A DNA stretch of 64,000 nt, taken from assembly GCF_900182655.1 (NCBI RefSeq), contig NZ_FXTC01000002.1:496001-560000 (forward strand). The letters are read 5' to 3'. The stretch is from Chryseobacterium rhizoplanae (lineage in GTDB: Bacteria > Bacteroidota > Bacteroidia > Flavobacteriales > Weeksellaceae). The notes under the pieces were generated by a model. That model was not told where the DNA came from and searched no databases. It saw only the letters and a list, made by a program, of their open reading frames with translations. Below are positions 1 to 10,353 of this stretch, piece by piece. A program made the position numbers and the translations under genes. Positions within the stretch are counted from its first letter, which is position 1, and every line of letters starts with the position of its first letter.

Positions 1-376
1 TAACGAAACCGCCCGTTATATTCCACCAATGCTCGAAGATGAATTTTACCTGACCTATGCCAGTGAAATGGAATCTTCTAAAAATGCTAAAAAATCAACT
101 ATGCTCACCAAAGCTCTTGTGCCTGTGGCGGGAATGAATCATACTTTATGGGCTGCCGCTAAAGATAATCAGGTTTCCATGGAAGGGAATATCAGCGGGC
201 AGATACGGGGTTACTTCACCTATCATTTCTGCAAAATATTACGTGCTACCAATGGTAATATTGTTAGAAAGACACTTGATAAACAAGTTGCTATTGCATT
301 GGCAGCGATGGGAGCAGCTCAGATCAACCAGACAGAGAGCATCACTGCAGAATTTTCACAAAAAATATTCACTTAA
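1..376 (+). CDS. Caspase-family (C14-like) peptidase, C-terminal part
   Basis: The reading frame is open from the window edge (first full codon at base 2), so the N-terminus, with the catalytic His and Cys, lies outside. What remains resembles the end of bacterial caspase-fold proteins: a segment reading HTLWAAAKDNQVSME, then a GYFTYHFCKIL segment matching the usual G-x-FTY strand and helix after the active-site Cys. No signal peptide can be judged. It lies 74 bases upstream of a trypsin-like protease on the same strand, and such pairings are known in bacterial conflict and cell-death loci. The fold is inferred from this short C-terminus only; no catalytic residue is visible. Confidence 0.55.
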   Translation, partial: NETARYIPPMLEDEFYLTYASEMESSKNAKKSTMLTKALVPVAGMNHTLWAAAKDNQVSMEGNISGQIRGYFTYHFCKILRATNGNIVRKTLDKQVAIALAAMGAAQINQTESITAEFSQKIFT

Positions 377-450
377 TCATATCATTATTACAGGCGGAAT
401 CCGAAAAGCCATTAAAAGAGTAGGAAAACACTAGATTAAAAATAATAATC

Positions 451-1461
451 ATGTCAAAAATCGAAAACAACAACCCAATGACAGCAGAAGAAGTTTTAAG
501 ACTTAGAACTGTTAAAGCAAAATCAACTGAAAAACCAGAAGCAGTTGAAAAATTATTTAAGCAGGCTCCCGCTATGGAAACCATCAACGGAAGAACTTTT
601 CCGAAAGGGATGAAAACAATAGGAATGCCTATGGATGAAAAAACAGCGGAAATCCGAGCTCTGGAAACTGATCACTTCTATCCTACCCATGCTGATTTTG
701 AATACAATCCAAAATTGGAACCGAAAAGAGACCGTAAACCAAAATTCATTGACAGAGATTCTTTCCTGACTCCGGAAAATGCAAGAACTATTTTTGGAGC
801 AGATCAGAGAAAAGTATATAATTCTACCGCTTATCCATGGAGATGCGTTGGCAGAGTAGAAAGTTCTTTAGGCTCAGGAAGCGGTGTAATGATCGGACCA
901 AGACACCTTCTTACCTGTTCTCATATTGTAGACTGGCAGCCTAATAATACTACAGGATGGCTGAAATTCACGCCAATGTATTATAACGGAAGTGCTCCTT
1001 ACGGAACAGCCTGGGGTACATTAACGTATTACAAGTATAAAGTAACAGGTCCATCTATTGATTCAACAGAGATACAATATGATTATGTAGTGATTGTATT
1101 AGACAGACCTATCGGAAACAGCACAGGCTGGTTAGGCTCAAAATCATATTCCGATTCATGGGACGGAGGAGCTTACTGGACTCACGCCGGATATCCGGGA
1201 GACCTTACAGGAACACAAAGACCAACATACCAAACAGGTATTGCACTGGATGGAGATTTCTGGAGTGCTGATGACAATGAAAGCATGAGCCATAAAGCAG
1301 ATATATGGCCTGGACAAAGCGGAGGTCCTTTTTGGGGATATTGGGACGGCTCTCCGTATGCCGTGGCTACTCAAAGCGCGCATAATCCAAGCGATAATTT
1401 TGCAAGTGGCGGCTCAGATTTAGTCAATCTGGTCATCAGAGCTAGAAATGAACATCCTTAA
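451..1461 (+). CDS. Trypsin-like serine protease, probably cytoplasmic
   Basis: 336 residues with the chymotrypsin-fold triad: His158 in LLTCSHIV, Asp211 in YDYVVIVLD and Ser290 in GQSGGPFWG, as in V8/glutamyl-endopeptidase-like enzymes. There is no signal peptide. The first ~130 residues are charged, rich in Lys and Glu, and precede the protease domain, so they may be a pro-region or partner-binding segment. Together with the upstream caspase-like gene it could form a two-protease cascade in which one cleaves the other; that is inference. A hairpin terminator follows the stop codon. Function as a protease is well supported, biological role is not. Confidence 0.8.
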   Translation: MSKIENNNPMTAEEVLRLRTVKAKSTEKPEAVEKLFKQAPAMETINGRTFPKGMKTIGMPMDEKTAEIRALETDHFYPTHADFEYNPKLEPKRDRKPKFIDRDSFLTPENARTIFGADQRKVYNSTAYPWRCVGRVESSLGSGSGVMIGPRHLLTCSHIVDWQPNNTTGWLKFTPMYYNGSAPYGTAWGTLTYYKYKVTGPSIDSTEIQYDYVVIVLDRPIGNSTGWLGSKSYSDSWDGGAYWTHAGYPGDLTGTQRPTYQTGIALDGDFWSADDNESMSHKADIWPGQSGGPFWGYWDGSPYAVATQSAHNPSDNFASGGSDLVNLVIRARNEHP

Positions 1462-1873: not shown

Positions 1874-2098
1874 ATGGAAAAAGTAATCAAAAGTAAACCA
1901 TCTGTGGTTTTAACTGGTTTTGAAAAAATTTCAGAATCACAAACGAAGCAGTTATTGGGCGGGTTTTCCAATACAATTACAAATCCAGATACAGGGCTCG
2001 ATCCTGATGATGGTACTACTAATAATTGCCAAGGAGGGAACTGCAGAGCAGGATGTGGAATATTACAGAACCTAAACTGCATCCAGTGTGGAAAATAA
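1874..2098 (+). CDS. RiPP precursor peptide 1, GGFS leader, five-Cys core
   Basis: 74 residues. A leader of about 30 residues (VVLTGFEKISES... QLLGG) ends in Gly29-Gly30, the site expected for a C39 peptidase. The 44-residue core starts FSNTITNP and holds Cys52, 57, 61, 69 and 72, in the pattern C-x4-C-x3-C-x7-C-x2-C. The leader is nearly identical to those of the genes at 2211 and 7176. A radical SAM maturase and a peptidase-containing exporter lie just downstream. It resembles the GG-Bacteroidales type of natural-product precursor. The final product and its activity are unknown. Confidence 0.85.
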   Translation: MEKVIKSKPSVVLTGFEKISESQTKQLLGGFSNTITNPDTGLDPDDGTTNNCQGGNCRAGCGILQNLNCIQCGK

Positions 2099-2126
2099 TG
2101 CATTCGCAATTCAATCATTTACACTA

Positions 2127-2149
2127 AAGCTGCTTTCAATTTGCAGCTT
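2127..2149 (+). promoter_or_regulatory. Hairpin between precursor genes 1 and 2
   Basis: AAGCTGC and GCAGCTT form a 7-bp stem with a 9-base loop. No T tract follows, so it is more likely an mRNA-stabilising or processing hairpin than a full terminator. Confidence 0.4.
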
Positions 2150-2210
2150 CTCAAAATTCTAAGATTTATTATAATAGATCATAATTAGTAATTTAAACAA
2201 AAGTTTAACC

Positions 2211-2438
2211 ATGAAAAAAGTAATCAAAAGTAAAACCACTGTGGTTTTAACTGGTTTTGAAAAAATTTCAGAATCACAAGGGAAACAATTATTGGGAGGA
2301 TTTTCCCATACAATCACTAATCCGGAAACAGGACTTGATGACGGTACAGGAACTACTAATAACTGTGCAGGAGGAAACTGTAAAGACGGGTGTGGACAGG
2401 GACAAAACGTGAACTGCGTATCAGGTTGTGGAAAATAA
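2211..2438 (+). CDS. RiPP precursor peptide 2, GGFS leader, five-Cys core
   Basis: 75 residues and a close paralogue of the gene at 1874. The leader is almost identical, ending QLLGG at Gly29-Gly30, and the core starts FSHTITNPETG. Cys52, 57, 61, 69 and 73 follow C-x4-C-x3-C-x7-C-x3-C, and the protein ends CGK. The core varies more than the leader, as expected for precursors sharing one maturase. It is separated from the maturase gene by ~350 bases that carry a long hairpin element. Confidence 0.87.
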   Translation: MKKVIKSKTTVVLTGFEKISESQGKQLLGGFSHTITNPETGLDDGTGTTNNCAGGNCKDGCGQGQNVNCVSGCGK

Positions 2439-2458
2439 GAATATAACTTTTCAGTCAC

Positions 2459-2792
2459 GTACTATTTAAGAACTGACAGTAATGAAATTTATATTTATAG
2501 CAATGATTCATAGTAGATTACACTATTTCAACCGTTAATACAAAAATTGTTAATGGTCTGAATTAAAACTACTATCCAGCGGATAGGTTAACAGTTGTAT
2601 GGAAACAAGTTTATCATACTATTGTGAGCAAAATTTTCTGGATTCATCTATAAGGTCAAATACCCCTGTTTTAAAACTCTTATGTTTAATTAAATTGAGG
2701 CTGTCTCAAAAGTATTTCCTTTAAATTCATTATTATCAAGAAATTCAAAGGGTAATATTTTGTCTTTTGAGACAGTCTTTTATCACTAAGTT
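2459..2792. other. Intergenic region between precursor 2 and the maturase
   Basis: About 330 bases with no gene seen. The first 230 bases are plain AT-rich sequence; the last 95 hold the inverted-repeat element listed separately. Any promoter for the maturase and exporter should lie here, but I see no full consensus. Confidence 0.5.
2697..2779. repeat. MITE-like inverted-repeat element or attenuator
   Basis: CTGTCTCAAAAG at 2701-2712 is matched by CTTTTGAGACAG at 2764-2775, a perfect 12-bp inverted repeat. A weaker inner pairing (CCTTTAAATTC with GAAATTCAAAGG) lies inside it. The right arm runs into TCTTTT, so the transcript could fold as a long hairpin just ahead of the maturase start at 2793. 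It may be an IS end or a small non-autonomous element, or an attenuator that lowers maturase expression relative to the precursors. Confidence 0.6.
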
Positions 2793-4115
2793 ATGAAATA
2801 TAGCCAATTTAACTCTATTGTATACATAGATGAAAGATATTATCTATATAATTCTTTCAATCAAAAATTTTTAGTAATTGATCCTATATTAAAGGATCTT
2901 CTTGAAGCTTCAAAAAGCGAAAATATAGAAAATCTACACGAAGTACATCCTACCTTTTATGATTATCTGGTTGCAGAGGAATTTATTATCTCTAGCGAAA
3001 TTGAGGAGGTTGAAAAAGTAAAGCAACTCGCAAAATCTGTTGATGAAAATCGATCTAACTTCTTACTTACGATTAATCCTACAATGAATTGCAATTTTAA
3101 ATGTTGGTACTGCTATGAAACGCATGTAAAAACATCTAAATTTTCTCAAAGTATGATTGATAAAGTGGGGAAATTTATTGAGAAAACAACAATAAACCCT
3201 GCAATGAAATATTTCCAGTTAGCATTCTTTGGAGGTGAACCTTTACTCTATTTTAAGAAAGATGTAGTTCCTGTTATTGAAAAACTTCAGGACGAATGTG
3301 TGAAAAATTCTGTAGACTATTCTGTTAGCTTTACCACAAATGGTTATCTGATAGATGACTACTTTATTGATTTTTTTAACTCACGTAAAATAACCCCTTC
3401 ATTTCAAATTACACTTGATGGTTACAAAGAAAAACATGATGAAGTAAGATTTGTAAATGCAAAAAAAGGATCTTATGTTGAAATTGTAAAAAATATAAAG
3501 CGCCTTATAAACAATTCCTTCTTTGTAAGACTTAGAGTAAATTACACATCAGAAAATATTGCTGATACCTATAAAATATCCGAAGAATTTCAAGATATCC
3601 CAGCCGATATTAAGAAAAAATACTTGTTAATGGATTTTCATAGAGTTTGGCAGGATTCACAAAATGATAATATAAATGAAGTTGTGGATGAAAATACAGA
3701 CAAAATCAAAGAGAATGGGATCCAAGTTAGTCATATGACTCCTGATAATGTTCGAAACTCATGCTATGCAGACAAAAGAAACAGTGCTGTTATTAATTAT
3801 AATGGTGATCTGTTCAAATGTACAGCCAGAGATTTTACAACAGCTAAAAGAGCCGGTTATATTAATGAATCAGGTGATTTGATATGGGAAGATGATTATC
3901 TTGAGAGAAGAATGAACACAAAATTCAAAAATAAACCATGCTTATCTTGCAGATTACTTCCAATTTGTAATGGAGGCTGCTCACAGCACGCTATGGAAGC
4001 AGAAGAAAGCCAAACAGAATACTGTGTATATTACGGTGATGATCGATTAAAAGATGACGTTGTAATATCTAAAATAAAAGGAATAGTAGAAGCTTTAGTT
4101 CTAGATGAAGTTTAA
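2793..4115 (+). CDS. Radical SAM/SPASM peptide maturase
   Basis: 440 residues. The radical SAM [4Fe-4S] ligands are Cys100, 104 and 107 in CNFKCWYC, with the SAM-binding GGEP at 147-150. A C-terminal SPASM domain supplies further cluster ligands: Cys324, 343, 383, 386, 392, 396 and 411, including CLSCRLLPICNGGC. The first ~85 residues could be a peptide-recognition domain. Family members install thioether or other cross-links in Cys-containing precursors, so the neighbouring GGFS peptides are the likely substrates. The stop codon overlaps the exporter start by 11 bases, implying translational coupling. No ATP-grasp partner is present, unlike grasp-with-SPASM systems. Confidence 0.9.
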   Translation: MKYSQFNSIVYIDERYYLYNSFNQKFLVIDPILKDLLEASKSENIENLHEVHPTFYDYLVAEEFIISSEIEEVEKVKQLAKSVDENRSNFLLTINPTMNCNFKCWYCYETHVKTSKFSQSMIDKVGKFIEKTTINPAMKYFQLAFFGGEPLLYFKKDVVPVIEKLQDECVKNSVDYSVSFTTNGYLIDDYFIDFFNSRKITPSFQITLDGYKEKHDEVRFVNAKKGSYVEIVKNIKRLINNSFFVRLRVNYTSENIADTYKISEEFQDIPADIKKKYLLMDFHRVWQDSQNDNINEVVDENTDKIKENGIQVSHMTPDNVRNSCYADKRNSAVINYNGDLFKCTARDFTTAKRAGYINESGDLIWEDDYLERRMNTKFKNKPCLSCRLLPICNGGCSQHAMEAEESQTEYCVYYGDDRLKDDVVISKIKGIVEALVLDEV

Positions 4116-6315
4116 ATTTGTTAATCAACTTGAAAGTAATGATTGTGGGCCGGCTTGTTTATCAATGGTTCTAAATTCTTATGGGGTAAATATTCCTGTA
4201 AAAGAATTAAAAGAAATTTGCGAAATAACAAGAATGGGGATATCAGTCAAAGACATTTTAGATGGTGGTGAAAAAGTAGGTTTTGAATCTCATGGTTTAA
4301 AACTTACTTTAGATCAGCTTGAAGAAATCCCCTTACCTGCAATTTTATTTTGGAAGCAAGATCATTATGTAGTGTTGTATAATATTATCACTAAAAAAGG
4401 TAAAAAACATTACTATATCGCAGATCCTGGCTATGGGAAAATTAAAATTGAAGAAGAACTGATAATAAGAGAATGGATTGGAAATGAGGCAAAAGGTGTT
4501 TGTCTGATCTTTCAACCTAAAGATGATTTTGAGCAAATTATTGAGAAAAATACTTTTACTGACTATAAAAAGAAGCCCTTTTACAGCAGTACTGTTATCA
4601 ATCATCTTATTAGTTTTCTTAAGAACAATAATTACAAATACATATTCTCACTTTTGCTATTGATTGTGGGGCTTGGTACTAACTGGCTCATTCCTATTAT
4701 TTTTAAAAGAATAATTGATGATGGAATAATCGCCAAATCACTCAACTTAGTTATTATTCTTTTGCTTACACAATTTCTGTTATTTATGGGAAATTTTGTA
4801 TCACAGTTTTTAAGCGATTTCATATTAACAAAACTAAACTTTAATTTATCAATAACTCTTAAAGAAAAATTTCTTAATAAACTGATAAAATTACCCGTCA
4901 ATTATTTTGATACCAGACTCAATACAGATACCCTGCTTAGATTAGGTGATTTATCAAAATTACAAACCTTTTTTACATGGAAGGGAATTAGTTTTTTTAT
5001 AAATACTCTTAATTTAATTGTTTTTAGTGGCATCCTGTTTTCTTTAAACAAATTAGTTTTTTTAATATTTGCTGTATTAAGCACCTTATCTGTTATTTGG
5101 ATATCATTTTTTTTAAAAAAGAGAGCTGCTTTAGAATATTCATTATTTATAAAGCAATCAGACAACAGTAATAACCTGTACGAGTTTATAATGAATATGC
5201 CTGAAATCAAAGTTAATCAGGCTCAGAATACTATTATATCAAAAATTTTAAAATTACAAAGAAGCCTCAATGAGTTAGAATTAAAGTCCTTATATCTCAA
5301 CGCTTACCAATTATCTGGTGCTAATTTTCTTTTGAAATTTAAAGAAATAACAATAATTGCAATTTGTGCCTATTTTATAATAAATTCACAGATGACTGTA
5401 GGTACTTTGTTAAGTATCTCATTTATTCTAGGTCAATTAAGCGGACCTATTATTAATCTGATTAACAACATAAAAGATGGTCAGGACGCTTTGATATCTC
5501 AAAAAAGAATTGAGGATGTCTTTAGGGTATCAAATGAAAATGACCAAGAGATTCCCGAAAGTGATATAGAGATTCATGATATTATTTTAAATAAAGTTTC
5601 TTTTAAATATCCAGGAAGTTTTAATCCCTTCGTAATTAACAATTTATCTTTTGCAATTCCTAAAAATAAAGTGACTGCAATTGTTGGTACCAGTGGAAGT
5701 GGTAAAACAACGTTAATGAAATTATTAATGAAATATTACCTTCCAACTTCTGGAAATTTATTTCTTGGTGAAGATAATTTTTCAAATTTAGATCCTGATC
5801 ATTGGAGAGATAAATGTGGCGCAGTCCTTCAGAACGGACATATTTTTTCCGGAACTATTAAATACAATATTGCTCTTTGTGAAAATGAATTTATAGATTT
5901 AGAGAAGCTTGAAAACGCAATAAAAGTAGCGTGCTTAGATAATTTCATTGAATCTTTACCCCTGGGTTCTGAAACAAAAATTGGGAATATTGGAATGCAG
6001 TTGAGCGGAGGGCAAAGCCAAAGGGTTTTAATAGCCAGAGCGGTTTATAAAAATCCTGAGTTTCTATTTTTTGATGAGGCTACCAGTTCTTTGGACGCCA
6101 ACACAGAAAAAGAAATTCTAAATAATTTAAGAGATTTTTTTGTAGGAAGAACAGTAGTTGTTGTAGCTCATCGTTTAAGTACAGTTAAAAATGCAGATCA
6201 AATCATTGTAATGGAGAAAGGAGAAATAACGGAAATAGGAACCCATGAAGAACTCATTGTGACAAGAGAAAAATATTTTTCTCTAGTAAAAAATCAATTA
6301 GAATTAGGAAATTAA
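4105..6315 (+). CDS. Peptidase-containing ABC transporter (C39 bacteriocin exporter)
   Basis: 736 residues. The N-terminal C39 peptidase has the catalytic Cys14 in NDCGPAC, His87 in WKQDHYVV and Asp107 in IADPGYG, the triad that cuts leaders after Gly-Gly. A six-helix transmembrane domain follows (about 175-460), then an ATPase with Walker A GTSGSGKTT near residue 526, signature LSGGQ near 633 and Walker B FLFFDEATSS near 653. It should cleave the GG leader and export the core across the inner membrane. It overlaps the maturase gene by 11 bases. It could also serve the GG-leader peptides at 31.5-32.8 kb, which have no exporter nearby. Confidence 0.93.
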   Translation: MKFKFVNQLESNDCGPACLSMVLNSYGVNIPVKELKEICEITRMGISVKDILDGGEKVGFESHGLKLTLDQLEEIPLPAILFWKQDHYVVLYNIITKKGKKHYYIADPGYGKIKIEEELIIREWIGNEAKGVCLIFQPKDDFEQIIEKNTFTDYKKKPFYSSTVINHLISFLKNNNYKYIFSLLLLIVGLGTNWLIPIIFKRIIDDGIIAKSLNLVIILLLTQFLLFMGNFVSQFLSDFILTKLNFNLSITLKEKFLNKLIKLPVNYFDTRLNTDTLLRLGDLSKLQTFFTWKGISFFINTLNLIVFSGILFSLNKLVFLIFAVLSTLSVIWISFFLKKRAALEYSLFIKQSDNSNNLYEFIMNMPEIKVNQAQNTIISKILKLQRSLNELELKSLYLNAYQLSGANFLLKFKEITIIAICAYFIINSQMTVGTLLSISFILGQLSGPIINLINNIKDGQDALISQKRIEDVFRVSNENDQEIPESDIEIHDIILNKVSFKYPGSFNPFVINNLSFAIPKNKVTAIVGTSGSGKTTLMKLLMKYYLPTSGNLFLGEDNFSNLDPDHWRDKCGAVLQNGHIFSGTIKYNIALCENEFIDLEKLENAIKVACLDNFIESLPLGSETKIGNIGMQLSGGQSQRVLIARAVYKNPEFLFFDEATSSLDANTEKEILNNLRDFFVGRTVVVVAHRLSTVKNADQIIVMEKGEITEIGTHEELIVTREKYFSLVKNQLELGN

Positions 6316-6374
6316 TCATTTCTCATTCAAATTTAAAAGCACGATTCTTACTTTAATTAATAAAAAATATAAAC

Positions 6375-7088
6375 ATGAAAAATTTTGTAGCAGTTTTTAT
6401 TTTTCTTATTGGAAATATGTTTCTTTCACAAGTGTATGCCAGCCAGCCAGAGAAAGAAAATATAATTAATATCTCAGGAATCGTTTTTGATTCAAAATCT
6501 CTCCTTCCTATAGAAAATGTGAATATTTATAATGAAAAAGGAGATGTTATTGCAAAAACTGATTCTAAGGGTTATTTTATAGGTAAGTTACAATATGCTA
6601 ATAAGGAAGGCATAAAATTTAAGATTAAGCTAGAAAAAAAAGGCTATCTATCTTTTACCCAAACTGAAAATTGGGCAGACTTTAAAAAAGGAAACATTAA
6701 CACAATATATTATTTTGGAATTAAGAAAGCCAATGAGGCTTCTGATGTAGATTCTTTTTCACAATTTATTTTTAGCAGTGACCTTTCATTTAAATCTGCT
6801 TCCAATAATTTCGAAAATGTTTTAGAAAAATTGAGGTTTAACAAAACCATTAATAATTTGAGAAAAAGCAGTCAAAAAAGTTTCTTTGAAATTAATAATT
6901 CTTATTATTTAATAAGTGATACGGGCTGGATAAAGCTAGAATCACCTAAAAGTTTAATTTACATTGATACTTTAAAAAAAATCTCAGCAGAAAACATCAA
7001 TTCTACTTTACAACGAAAAGACATTAAAGATATTCTTCATACGGACGATGGGGAGATAAAAATCACAATGTATACAGTTGAAAAATAG
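6375..7088 (+). CDS. Secreted protein with carboxypeptidase-regulatory-like domain
   Basis: 237 residues with a signal peptide (cleavage likely after QVYA, near residue 23). Residues ~30-110 look like a beta-sandwich regulatory domain of the CarboxypepD_reg type (ISGIVFDSKSLLPIENVNIYN). The remaining ~120 residues match nothing I recognise. No catalytic motif is visible. It sits inside the peptide operon, 59 bases after the exporter and 87 before precursor 3, so an accessory role is likely: immunity, periplasmic processing or surface retention. The choice between these is open. Confidence 0.6.
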   Translation: MKNFVAVFIFLIGNMFLSQVYASQPEKENIINISGIVFDSKSLLPIENVNIYNEKGDVIAKTDSKGYFIGKLQYANKEGIKFKIKLEKKGYLSFTQTENWADFKKGNINTIYYFGIKKANEASDVDSFSQFIFSSDLSFKSASNNFENVLEKLRFNKTINNLRKSSQKSFFEINNSYYLISDTGWIKLESPKSLIYIDTLKKISAENINSTLQRKDIKDILHTDDGEIKITMYTVEK

Positions 7089-7175
7089 ATAAGAAACTTC
7101 AATCCAAATTCATATCCTTTAAGCGTTTACAACATTCATAAAAAATTATAATTAACAATTTTAAAAACTATTGCT

Positions 7176-7397
7176 ATGAAAAAAGTAATCAAAATTAAAA
7201 CCACAGTGGTTTTAACTGGTTTTGAAAAAATTTCAGAATCACAAGGGAAACAATTGTTGGGAGGTTTTTCTCATACAATTACCAATCCGGAAACAGGAAT
7301 TGATGATGGCATCTCAAATAACTGCCAGGGAGGTAACTGTGCCATCAATTGCAGCATTCATCAAAATCTCAATTGTAGCGGAGCCTGCGGTAAATAA
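7176..7397 (+). CDS. RiPP precursor peptide 3, GGFS leader, five-Cys core
   Basis: 73 residues with the same leader as the genes at 1874 and 2211, GG at 29-30 and a core starting FSHTITNPETG. Cys50, 55, 59, 67 and 71 give C-x4-C-x3-C-x7-C-x3-C, ending CGK. The acidic linker is shorter by two residues than in its paralogues. Being on the far side of the maturase and exporter, it suggests duplication and spread of the precursor within the locus. Confidence 0.87.
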   Translation: MKKVIKIKTTVVLTGFEKISESQGKQLLGGFSHTITNPETGIDDGISNNCQGGNCAINCSIHQNLNCSGACGK

Positions 7398-7411
7398 ACT
7401 AGAATTGAATT

Positions 7412-7642
7412 ATGAAAAAAAATGAAAAGAGAAGTTTAAATACTGATCACCTGAAAGATCTAATTACCTCTGCAACAATTAAAAAAGATGCATCAATTGA
7501 TAAATTAATTGGTGGTTTCAGTCAAGCTGTATCAATAGGAATTGATGATACTATTTCTGATGGACAGACTAATAATTGTGATGGAGTGAATTGTCGTAAA
7601 TATTGCGGCGCAGATATCCCTCAGTTGCCTTTTAGATCATAA
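7412..7642 (+). CDS. RiPP precursor peptide 4, second leader class, three-Cys core
   Basis: 76 residues. The leader differs from precursors 1-3 (LNTDHLKDLITSATIKKD...) but ends in the same GGFS, with GG at 34-35. The core reads FSQAVSIGIDDTISDGQ and then NNCDGVNCRKYC, with Cys56, 61 and 65 keeping the C-x4-C-x3-C spacing of precursors 1-3; the last two cysteines of that pattern are absent. It begins 14 bases after precursor 3, so the two are probably cotranscribed. Confidence 0.83.
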   Translation: MKKNEKRSLNTDHLKDLITSATIKKDASIDKLIGGFSQAVSIGIDDTISDGQTNNCDGVNCRKYCGADIPQLPFRS

Positions 7643-7703
7643 TTCCCTCAATAACTACCGCGGAGCATTTCGTTAATGGTTCATTACTTAAAAATTAAAA
7701 AAT

Positions 7704-7958
7704 ATGAAAAATTTCAGTCTTGAGAATACTCGCCTAAACATGGAACGTTTACAGCAACTTATTGTTTCTGCAGAAATTGAAACAGATAAATCTGCTGATA
7801 AACTTATTGGAGGTTTCAGCCAATCTTTATCAATAGGAATTGAAGATACTATTTCTGATGGACAGTCTAATAACTGTAATGGAGCAAATTGTCATAGACA
7901 TTGTGGCGATTATCCCCCAGATACTCCAGTAGGACCAAATACGGTCTGTATTTTTTAA
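7704..7958 (+). CDS. RiPP precursor peptide 5, second leader class
   Basis: 84 residues and a paralogue of the gene at 7412: similar leader (LNMERLQQLIVSAEIETDKS), GGFS with GG at 36-37, and a core FSQSLSIGIEDTISDGQ. Cys58, 63 and 67 form NNCNGANCHRHC, and an extra Cys82 lies in a Pro-rich tail ending VCIF. It is the last gene before a strong terminator, so it closes the peptide operon. Confidence 0.83.
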   Translation: MKNFSLENTRLNMERLQQLIVSAEIETDKSADKLIGGFSQSLSIGIEDTISDGQSNNCNGANCHRHCGDYPPDTPVGPNTVCIF

Positions 7959-7978
7959 ATACCAATTATGAATGTTAG

Positions 7979-8000
7979 AAGCCTCTTTTTGAGGCTTTTT
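7979..8000 (+). terminator. Terminator of the RiPP operon
   Basis: AAGCCTC and GAGGCTT form a perfect stem with a T5 loop and a trailing T run, 20 bases after precursor 5. Confidence 0.85.
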
Positions 8001-8262: not shown

Positions 8263-10353
8263 CTAGAATGTGGTTGCAGGTGCAGTATTGTTGTATAACT
8301 TTCTGTTGACTTCGTTCTTTTTCCCTTTAGCAAAATCATAGCCTATTCCCAAGATAAACATATTTTTGTTGTTGTAAATATTAGTAACTCCTGAATAGTT
8401 TACTAAACTTTCATTAAGTGTTTTCATCTTGTATCTTGATGGCATTCCCAACCAGTACATTCCAGTGGTAAATGTCCAGTCTTTCAGCTTATAATTGGCA
8501 AAAATATGGTTCTGGTTCTCATTAGTGTTTAAGAATGCTCCACTTAGGGTGTAGACAGGAATATTAAACATATAAGTCAAACTTAAATTTTTGTATTCAG
8601 AAGAAATTGTGAAATTATTTCCGAAATAATTATTTTTAAGCAAAGCTCCTGAAATCATCTTAACACGCTGCATTGTTGGATAAATATTGGCTTTAATAAC
8701 TAACAGCCTATTTCCAAATGGTTTTACAGATCCTGTCATCTGTATCCCTAAACGTGAACTAAACTGGGCATTTTCGTATGTTAATGCATATTGGGTATTG
8801 TTATTATACAAAACGTACATACTGTTTATAGCATTATCCAAATAATTATAGAAAAGATTAGCATTAAAATCAAAATACTTATTATTATAAGAATAATTTA
8901 AATTATTATTCCACGCCTTTTGTATTGTTAAAAAAGGATTCCCTGTAGAAACAATATTAGGAACAATCTGATTAATATTTGGACTTAGTGATGTACTACC
9001 CGGGCTATAAGGAGTGTAACTGCTCGTGAATCGCAAACTTTGATTCTTCTTCAACTCGTATCCTAAAATAATTTTAGGAGTTATCGTCCAGTCATCATTG
9101 CTCGTTGTAGCAGTCTTATTCTGTATATTAGTTAAACCCAATCCGATACGATACATCAGTTTTTTACTTTTACCTGCAAATTCTGAATATAAATATTGTG
9201 TCAAATAATTAACTGAAAAATCAAAATTTCCAGCCAGATTCACTAGACTATTATCAACATTGTTATTGTCAATTCTATAGCCTGCACTTAGCTTACCCAT
9301 TACAAAATCATGAGTGTAGGCTACCTCTCCTACAATACTCTTCTGTTTGGCTTTTAAATTCATATCATTATCAAAAATAATATTATCTGTATTGATTACC
9401 CATTCTTTATCAATTTCAAAGCTTTTACTGGTATATGCAGATCCTACTACATTAAAACTTATTTCATCTTTTTTGCCTAGTTTTTTGGAAAAGTAAATAT
9501 CTAGTTTTGGAGGACTATATTTTTCACCAGTATACTGTGAAGTTCCATGTTGTTCTGAAGCATTGTCTTTTGTGAAAATACTTTCTCCATTTCCCTTAGA
9601 GAAAGAATTATAAATATTCATTGAAAACTTTGTTTGAAAAACATAATTTCCGCTCAGGGAATTAGTATATCTTAAAGTAATATCCTGATCGGTATAGCCA
9701 AAATGATCTGTCTTATTTTCATTTGTATTGTAATGAGATCCCTGCAAATGATAATCATAGACTCTGTTGGTAGCCCGGTTATCATAATCTCTGAAATTAA
9801 TGGCATACTCTAGACCAATATTATTTCTTCCGTTGGTATAGTTTGCATAAGCCTGTCCATTTACAAACCCTGTCGTCAATGCAGTACTTACTGAAGTTCC
9901 TGCAGCAAAACCTACTTCAGGATTTCTTGTAATAATATTAACAACAGTATCCGCTCTATTGGCCCATCTTGTAGGAGGATTATCATAATACTCAACTCTC
10001 ACCACATTTTCTGGCCGGATACCTCTGGCTTGCAGCTCTGTAGATTCTATTCCGTTGATTAAAAGTAAAAATTTTCCACCTTTTATACTGGAAATCTTAC
10101 TGGAAATAGGATCGAATTGAAGTTCAGGCAAAGTTTGCAGTAAGTCATTGGCATATCTGGCTTTTTTTAAAGCTTCTTCATCGAAACTATAAACCGCTTT
10201 GTCTACATATTGTTTTTTACGTTGTGTTTTTATTAGAACCTCTTGAATTTCTTTTATTTTTTGAATTGAATCCTGGGGTTTTGGGGTATTATTTTCTTGT
10301 GCAAGAGTAAAGCTACCTATAGTTAATAGTGCTAAACTTATCTGTTTTCTCAT
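8263..10353 (-). CDS. TonB-dependent receptor / outer-membrane beta-barrel protein
   Basis: 696 residues with a Sec signal peptide (MRKQISLALLTIGSFTLAQ). A plug domain follows (about 30-155; ANDLLQTLPELQFDP, LLINGIES, VVRVEYYDNPPTRWANRADTV), then a long beta-barrel with repeated aromatic-ended strands to Phe696. It lacks the N-terminal carboxypeptidase-like domain of SusC-type receptors and resembles the short outer-membrane barrel family 3 type. The ligand is unknown. It is convergent with the peptide locus, so a link to uptake or sensing of the peptide is possible but unproven. A full consensus promoter precedes it. Confidence 0.85.
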   Translation of the reverse strand: MRKQISLALLTIGSFTLAQENNTPKPQDSIQKIKEIQEVLIKTQRKKQYVDKAVYSFDEEALKKARYANDLLQTLPELQFDPISSKISSIKGGKFLLLINGIESTELQARGIRPENVVRVEYYDNPPTRWANRADTVVNIITRNPEVGFAAGTSVSTALTTGFVNGQAYANYTNGRNNIGLEYAINFRDYDNRATNRVYDYHLQGSHYNTNENKTDHFGYTDQDITLRYTNSLSGNYVFQTKFSMNIYNSFSKGNGESIFTKDNASEQHGTSQYTGEKYSPPKLDIYFSKKLGKKDEISFNVVGSAYTSKSFEIDKEWVINTDNIIFDNDMNLKAKQKSIVGEVAYTHDFVMGKLSAGYRIDNNNVDNSLVNLAGNFDFSVNYLTQYLYSEFAGKSKKLMYRIGLGLTNIQNKTATTSNDDWTITPKIILGYELKKNQSLRFTSSYTPYSPGSTSLSPNINQIVPNIVSTGNPFLTIQKAWNNNLNYSYNNKYFDFNANLFYNYLDNAINSMYVLYNNNTQYALTYENAQFSSRLGIQMTGSVKPFGNRLLVIKANIYPTMQRVKMISGALLKNNYFGNNFTISSEYKNLSLTYMFNIPVYTLSGAFLNTNENQNHIFANYKLKDWTFTTGMYWLGMPSRYKMKTLNESLVNYSGVTNIYNNKNMFILGIGYDFAKGKKNEVNRKLYNNTAPATTF

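Follow-up and report, generated by a model that had tools for sequence, protein, structure and literature searches.

Within a 64,000-nucleotide stretch of the Chryseobacterium rhizoplanae genome (contig NZ_FXTC01000002.1, positions 496,001 to 560,000; hereafter the window) lies a locus for ribosomally synthesized and post-translationally modified peptides (RiPPs), composed of five precursor genes, one radical S-adenosylmethionine (SAM)/SPASM maturase gene and one gene for an exporter of the C39 type, a peptidase-containing ABC transporter (PCAT). By its sequence the locus belongs to a Bacteroidota-wide and still unnamed RiPP family. In the pathway that we propose, the maturase would form thioethers between Asn and a downstream Cys (N-X2-4-C), the PCAT would cut and export the core, and a barrel of PF14905 type would act at the outer membrane; taken as a whole, we think this account a little likelier right than wrong. 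Its separate parts are of known kinds, and their combination – an Asn-before-Cys rule, NNCxGGNC arrays, a single SPASM enzyme, a PCAT and a barrel – fits no curated family by the searches described below.

The precursors and their locus

All five precursors (73–84 residues) have a leader that ends in L(L/I)GGFS and a core that contains NNCxGxNCxxxC, with one leader type shared by P1–P3 and another by P4–P5. Searched as a DNA pattern, NNCxGxNCxxxC has exactly five matches in the 5.18-Mb genome, every one of them on a precursor gene, and the reversed control has none genome-wide. Two precursor genes (P1–P2) lie 5' of the modification genes and three (P3–P5) lie 3' of them, as follows.

1874..2098, + strand: precursor P1, 74 aa; leader 1-30 (...LLGG), core FSNTITNPDTGLDPDDGTTNNCQGGNCRAGCGILQNLNCIQCGK; from the open reading frame (ORF), homologs in loci L029–L031 and alignment
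2211..2438, + strand: precursor P2, 75 aa; core FSHTITNPETGLDDGTGTTNNCAGGNCKDGCGQGQNVNCVSGCGK; from the ORF and a repeat family with P1 and P3
2793..4115, + strand: radical SAM/SPASM maturase, 440 aa; predicted RiPP recognition element (RRE)-like region ~1-85, CxxxCxxC at 100/104/107, seven-Cys SPASM pattern 324-411
4105..6315, + strand: PCAT exporter, 736 aa; C39 peptidase, ABC membrane and ATPase domains
6375..7088, + strand: secreted protein, probably an accessory, 237 aa; predicted signal helix, transthyretin-like CarboxypepD_reg domain, helix plus strands
7176..7397, + strand: precursor P3, 73 aa; core FSHTITNPETGIDDGISNNCQGGNCAINCSIHQNLNCSGACGK
7412..7642, + strand: precursor P4, 76 aa; leader type different from that of P1–P3; core FSQAVSIGIDDTISDGQTNNCDGVNCRKYCGADIPQLPFRS
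7704..7958, + strand: precursor P5, 84 aa; P4-type leader; core FSQSLSIGIEDTISDGQSNNCNGANCHRHCGDYPPDTPVGPNTVCIF
8263..10353, - strand: outer-membrane beta-barrel of TonB-dependent-receptor type (PF14905), 696 aa; probable partner of the RiPP locus

A preliminary description of this DNA had reported five precursors with GGFS leaders, one radical SAM/SPASM maturase with Cys100/104/107 and one C39 exporter, all of which were found where it placed them, and the ORF coordinates agree with its arrangement of two precursors before and three after the modification genes. It had also reported neither ATP-grasp nor cyclodehydratase, and among the flanking genes scanned around the locus there is indeed no ATP-grasp, YcaO-type or cyclodehydratase gene. 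Its reading of a Cys-rich peptide pathway with a product that it could not name holds as well: comparison of P1–P5 with NCBIfam and Pfam gave no significant family match and no name for the precursors, and the model TIGR04149 (GG-Bacteroidales radical SAM targets) matches none of the window precursors and only two, weakly, among 86 of their relatives. The word 'complete' must be amended for the PF14905 barrel, which is part of the set in most relatives and is encoded in the window just beyond the 1874–8000 range described, on the opposite strand; the 237-aa secreted protein encoded inside the operon (6375–7088) was likewise missing.

Distribution of the family

A maturase profile scan of genomes gave 130 candidates, of which the best 80 were kept, making 81 loci with that of the window. 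Their hosts include Chryseobacterium, Flavobacterium, Tenacibaculum, Mucilaginibacter, Chitinophaga, Niastella, Pedobacter, Prevotellaceae and others. A PCAT exporter is present at 80 of the 81 loci and a PF14905-type barrel at 76, in most cases immediately upstream in the same orientation; short precursors, maturase and transporter are thus kept as a unit across loci, as in RiPP pathways generally. The precursors, which have GG leaders and contain Cys, are related yet diverse, with 160 in 75 loci (counted after one spurious ORF was dropped) and up to 10 per locus. Bacteroidota radical SAM RiPPs are poorly charted, and the family adds over 80 loci to them. We found no paper on it in the literature searched, and the 2022 JACS atlas of radical SAM RiPPs (Clark and Seyedsayamdost) may list it.

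A close relative, L029 of Chryseobacterium panacisoli (loci and genomes carry our L and G numbers), has a maturase 97% identical to that of the window, and ~12 kb of DNA are shared at 93.8%. In the maturase tree L029, L030 and L031 form a fully supported group with the window, other Chryseobacterium copies being placed elsewhere, and only 17 of 173 Chryseobacterium genomes have a maturase match (E ≤ 1e-60). Precursor type tracks the tree in large clades, with at least nine changes among 81 rows. The scattered occurrence within the genus, the tree placement and the changes of precursor type together form a pattern that fits horizontal spread. A plasmid location for the family was rejected, as only two plasmid matches exceed 40% identity; plasmid records label family members merely 'radical SAM protein'.

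We note that at L074, L075, L077–L081, L083, L086, L095 and L108 the N-X3-C precursors and maturase stand beside further short peptides (...PPIYE..., ...HWPT...), and that many of these mixed loci also have a LanB-like dehydratase and an HlyD protein, which suggests joined RiPP pathways. At L152 (G198) the P2 ortholog (precursor at 4629, in a reversed locus) is split within its core by an insertion resembling an insertion sequence (IS), with a transposase-like ORF at 4788–6128; both halves are still recognizable. Two Bacteroidota-type loci bear Proteobacteria titles, L067 (a 'Limnohabitans' metagenome-assembled genome) and L105 (a 'Beijerinckiaceae' one), and these contigs are probably misbinned.

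Asn and Cys in the precursor cores

The arrangement of Asn around Cys was compared with shuffles in which the core letters were permuted and Cys held fixed, a test that does not remove shared ancestry and is complemented in part by a count over clades. Asn is enriched at -4, -1, -5 and +4 of Cys. N-X2-4-C occurs in all 160 precursors (shuffle mean 117, maximum 130), and Asn stands at -3 to -5 for 430 of 611 Cys against 203 expected. The rule is sharpest in cores with one or two Cys, such as ITINIYQC, DINLIAC, DVNVIAC and EINISKC, where 23 of 27 have Asn exactly four residues ahead of the first Cys (1.9 expected, maximum 7) and where, in seven of eight clades, all members have Asn at -4 or -3. 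No other residue tested, Asp, Ser and Gly included, shows the same excess; the nearest to Asn in the X2-4-C test is V, at 97 against 66 expected. Cys and Asn are also the only reactive residues conserved across clades. The window belongs to the C-x4-C-x3-C type, whose consensus, [N/T]N-C-x-G-G-N-C-V-A-G-C-G, has Asn in 100% at +4 and in 97% at -1 of the first Cys.

A precedent is offered by NxxcA, in which an Asn20-Cys23 thioether is formed at Cβ, the Asn acceptor lying three residues before Cys (PMC8326336). The N-X2-4-C rule and this precedent therefore lead us to propose Asn-Cys thioethers with Asn upstream. The precursor peptides very probably receive Cys crosslinks, and these crosslinks perhaps go onto Asn; in the NNC core several assignments of each Cys to each Asn may be possible. 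By analogy with known systems, the maturase would bind the precursor leader, a SAM-derived radical would take a side-chain hydrogen from a core Asn, and the thiol of a Cys 3–5 residues downstream would close onto the Asn carbon, probably Cβ as in NxxcA, with a change of -2 Da per crosslink. The PCAT would then cleave after GG and export the core. With many loci, a sharp Asn-before-Cys rule and natural substrates that hold one Cys, the crosslink chemistry is directly testable, and if the rule is true, asparagine thioether macrocycles could be reached by simple genetic means through a single enzyme family.

The maturase and the exporter

The maturase carries, beside its CxxxCxxC motif, the full seven-Cys SPASM pattern (324, 343, 383, 386, 392, 396 and 411) in the spacing CX9-15GX4C-gap-CX2CX5CX3C-gap-C; these cysteines and those of the radical SAM cluster are invariant or nearly so across 61 relatives, and PF04055 and PF13186 (Pfam) both score above cut-off. 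An AlphaFold2 model built from 61 sequences has a mean predicted local distance difference test score (pLDDT) of 89.5, with low confidence in the loop that holds the radical SAM Cys. Residues 7–84 form three strands followed by helices (pLDDT >90), an RRE-like order in the predicted model, by which the N-terminus (~1–85) may be a leader-binding RRE.

Among solved folds, TigE, SuiB and CteB come nearest, at 16–19% identity, and TigE (PDB 8vpo, 17%) is the best, with a full-length match; by profile the closest solved sequence is CteB. The nearest NCBIfam models, which also lead across the 61 relatives, are in order TIGR04463 (162 bits against a cut-off of 525, the best of all NCBIfam maturase models), Clo7bot (TIGR04334; 153 against 600), CefB (NF038107; 141 against 600) and PapB (NF047865; 119 against 340). 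Matches to the cyclophane formers YhhB and GrrM and to DynA are below cut-off too. Placement of the maturase in any curated family was rejected, all scores being far under the cut-offs, and the tight clustering with a known family that the preliminary description had named in advance as grounds for abandoning its reading was thus not seen. The order of the NCBIfam models, the CteB profile match and the full SPASM pattern are likenesses to thioether formers that we count in favor of the Asn-Cys bond.

The exporter has PF03412, PF00664 and PF00005 domains and aligns end to end (residues 2–729) with solved PCAT-type transporters (4ry2); its putative triad, picked by eye from the sequence, is Cys14/His87/Asp107. 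With both a double-glycine leader and a C39 ABC transporter present, P1–P5 are by their sequence of the PCAT-exported type.

Each known system shares some of these features. NxxcA/NxxcB, a Streptococcus beta-thioether ranthipeptide (PMC8326336), has a conserved Asn-before-Cys pair (Asn-X2-Cys) and a radical SAM/SPASM maturase, NxxcB being compared here by description rather than by sequence; in the Bacteroidota system the spacing is mostly N-X3-C or N-X4-C, with several such motifs in a core, and there are multiple precursors, a PCAT and a barrel. PapA/PapB (freyrasin) resembles the system in a core with several Cys and in the maturase sequence, but the PapB score is far under its cut-off and PapA uses Cys-X3-Asp/Glu (PMC9413430), whereas no enrichment of Asp near Cys is seen here. 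CteB (PDB 5wgg) has the same domain order at 18–19% structural identity; the SCIFF maturase model (TIGR03974) gives 66 bits against 425, and the cores here carry 3–5 Cys, with no six-Cys-in-45 precursor like CteA. The TIGR04463, Clo7bot and CefB maturases of Cys-rich peptides match over nearly full length, at scores far below their cut-offs, and the precursors match no model of the library searched. The GRASP-with-SPASM and BGC8/itf loci (PMC8939145, PMC10352776) are likewise from Bacteroidota, with GG leaders, a PCAT, a SPASM enzyme and sometimes an outer-membrane protein, but they need an ATP-grasp or YcaO enzyme. The pathway would work like a ranthipeptide one and may belong to that class, which is defined by an S-to-Cβ or S-to-Cγ thioether in the product.

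The nature of the bond

Several observations weigh against the proposed pathway. Only part of the Cys in the window cores are preceded by Asn at -3 to -5, the first two Cys of NNCxGxNC not among them; CX2-4N is likewise enriched (134 of 160 against 109 expected); and the shuffles ignore common descent, which the clade count (7/8) eases only partly. The best fold match, TigE, makes cyclopropylglycine and not thioethers, so that fold does not decide the bond. Finally, barrel copies 86–88% identical to that of the window in genomes without the cluster weaken the barrel's tie to the locus.

The most serious alternative is a PapB-like ranthipeptide or sactipeptide topology, in which Cys would stand N-terminal to its partner (C-X3-N in NNC-x-G-G-N), or the bond would go to the Cα of Gly, Thr or Ala, and Asn would serve for recognition. 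The Asn that is always present four residues after the first Cys in the C-x4-C-x3-C type speaks for it, as do CX3N in 46 of 63 loci (29.5 expected), the enrichment of Gly beside Cys and the precedent of PapB, which crosslinks Cys-X3-Asp (PMC9413430). However, the one-Cys cores (L077, L085, L086, L088, L095) have Asn ahead of Cys and mostly nothing comparable behind it, and N-X2-4-C is universal among precursors whereas CX2-4N is not; we regard this topology as unlikely, if worth serious attention. It is improbable that the maturase makes some other modification (a cyclophane, cyclopropylglycine, an epimer or an ether) and that the Cys stay free or form disulfides. The TigE fold, whose enzyme yields poly-cyclopropylglycine with no Cys crosslink (PMC9062424), and the sub-cut-off matches to YhhB, GrrM and DynA are consistent with such chemistry, but the cores are nearly without aromatics apart from the leader-proximal Phe (W 0.1%, Y 1.1%, H 1.1%), and it is Cys and Asn that are conserved.

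The outer-membrane barrel and the secreted protein

As the source genome encodes approximately eleven PF14905-type barrels, adjacency of a barrel at 76 of 81 loci is not due to chance. The window barrel (8263–10353) lies outside the subgroup that holds most cluster barrels, and because it has orthologs without the cluster it was first accepted as an unrelated neighbor; that reading was withdrawn because G198 and G173 carry the same type in the usual slot. At L152, in G198, where the maturase is 90% identical, the precursors are immediately preceded on the same strand by a barrel with 84% identity to that of the window; the same holds at L153 (G173) for a relative with 55% identity. We hold with moderate confidence that the window barrel gene is a displaced partner of the RiPP system. 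The 86–88% copies at L133, L134 and L135 (G018, G011 and G001), which have neither maturase nor precursor nearby, are possible orphan receptors. Three barrel genes occur in a row or flank the locus at L060 (Apibacter mensalis) and L040 (Thermoflavifilum), and at L040 two barrels each adjoin one precursor, hinting at peptide-specific barrels.

The 237-aa protein has a predicted signal helix, a transthyretin-like domain that also fronts many barrels, and a C-terminal part without known fold. As a member of the operon, its gene is confined to the window clade (window, L029, L030, L031 and L152), and it has chromosomal paralogs of ~40% identity near a serS-like gene. That the protein is a split-off barrel N-terminal domain acting in trans is not supported, on two grounds: L030 has both the 237-aa protein and a full-length barrel, and G173 has a short barrel without the protein. 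Both the 237-aa protein and the barrel probably belong to the RiPP system.

Possible roles

The recurrent barrel raises the question of whether it is an exit, a receptor or an immunity device for a secreted crosslinked peptide; more speculatively, and with less support than the earlier steps, the peptide might cross the outer membrane through it or be recognized there. Rivalry with kin, signaling and ligand uptake are candidate roles for the peptide. The patchy distribution and diversified multi-precursor arrays favor competition between related bacteria, a role that is speculative. Among the neighbor genes of family loci, none for a regulator, a metal exporter or a known immunity function is recurrent. 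We offer only tentatively, and as rather more apt to be wrong than right, the broader idea of a phylum-wide unnamed class in which one SPASM enzyme would place several Asn-Cys thioethers on NNCxGGNCxxGCG arrays, with PCAT export and a dedicated outer-membrane receptor forming a secrete-and-recognize system.

A different role, whatever the bond, would be that of metallophore-like, metal-binding peptides re-imported by the TonB-type barrel, as in methanobactin loci. The cores are Cys-rich and a TonB-dependent-receptor-type barrel is nearly always at hand, but neither a metal exporter, a FecI/FecR pair nor a periplasmic binding gene recurs among the neighbors, one-Cys cores would be poor ligands and crosslinks would consume most Cys, and we give this role little credence. 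It is scarcely credible that the peptides stay unmodified, as bacteriocins similar to class II, and that the radical SAM gene next to them is unrelated: a GG leader and a C39 exporter would be enough for class II bacteriocins, but the precursor-maturase-PCAT order is preserved across dozens of genera, in large clades the type of precursor goes with the maturase tree, and the modeled N-terminus of the maturase is RRE-like.

Neighboring features

Directly 5' of the locus, at window positions 1–1461 (also L028:9531–11461), a caspase-domain gene (PF00656) is followed by a trypsin-like gene (PF13365), for which PADLOC gave a generic caspase match and a weak reverse transcriptase (RT)-protease match and nothing more. 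Between P2 and the maturase gene, a 105-base stretch (2688–2792) was considered as a miniature inverted-repeat transposable element or IS remnant and rejected, as the genome holds a single copy of it and the IS of G198 does not share it. It contains a perfect 12-base inverted repeat (CTGTCTCAAAAG/CTTTTGAGACAG) with the arms ~50 bases apart, a possible hairpin.

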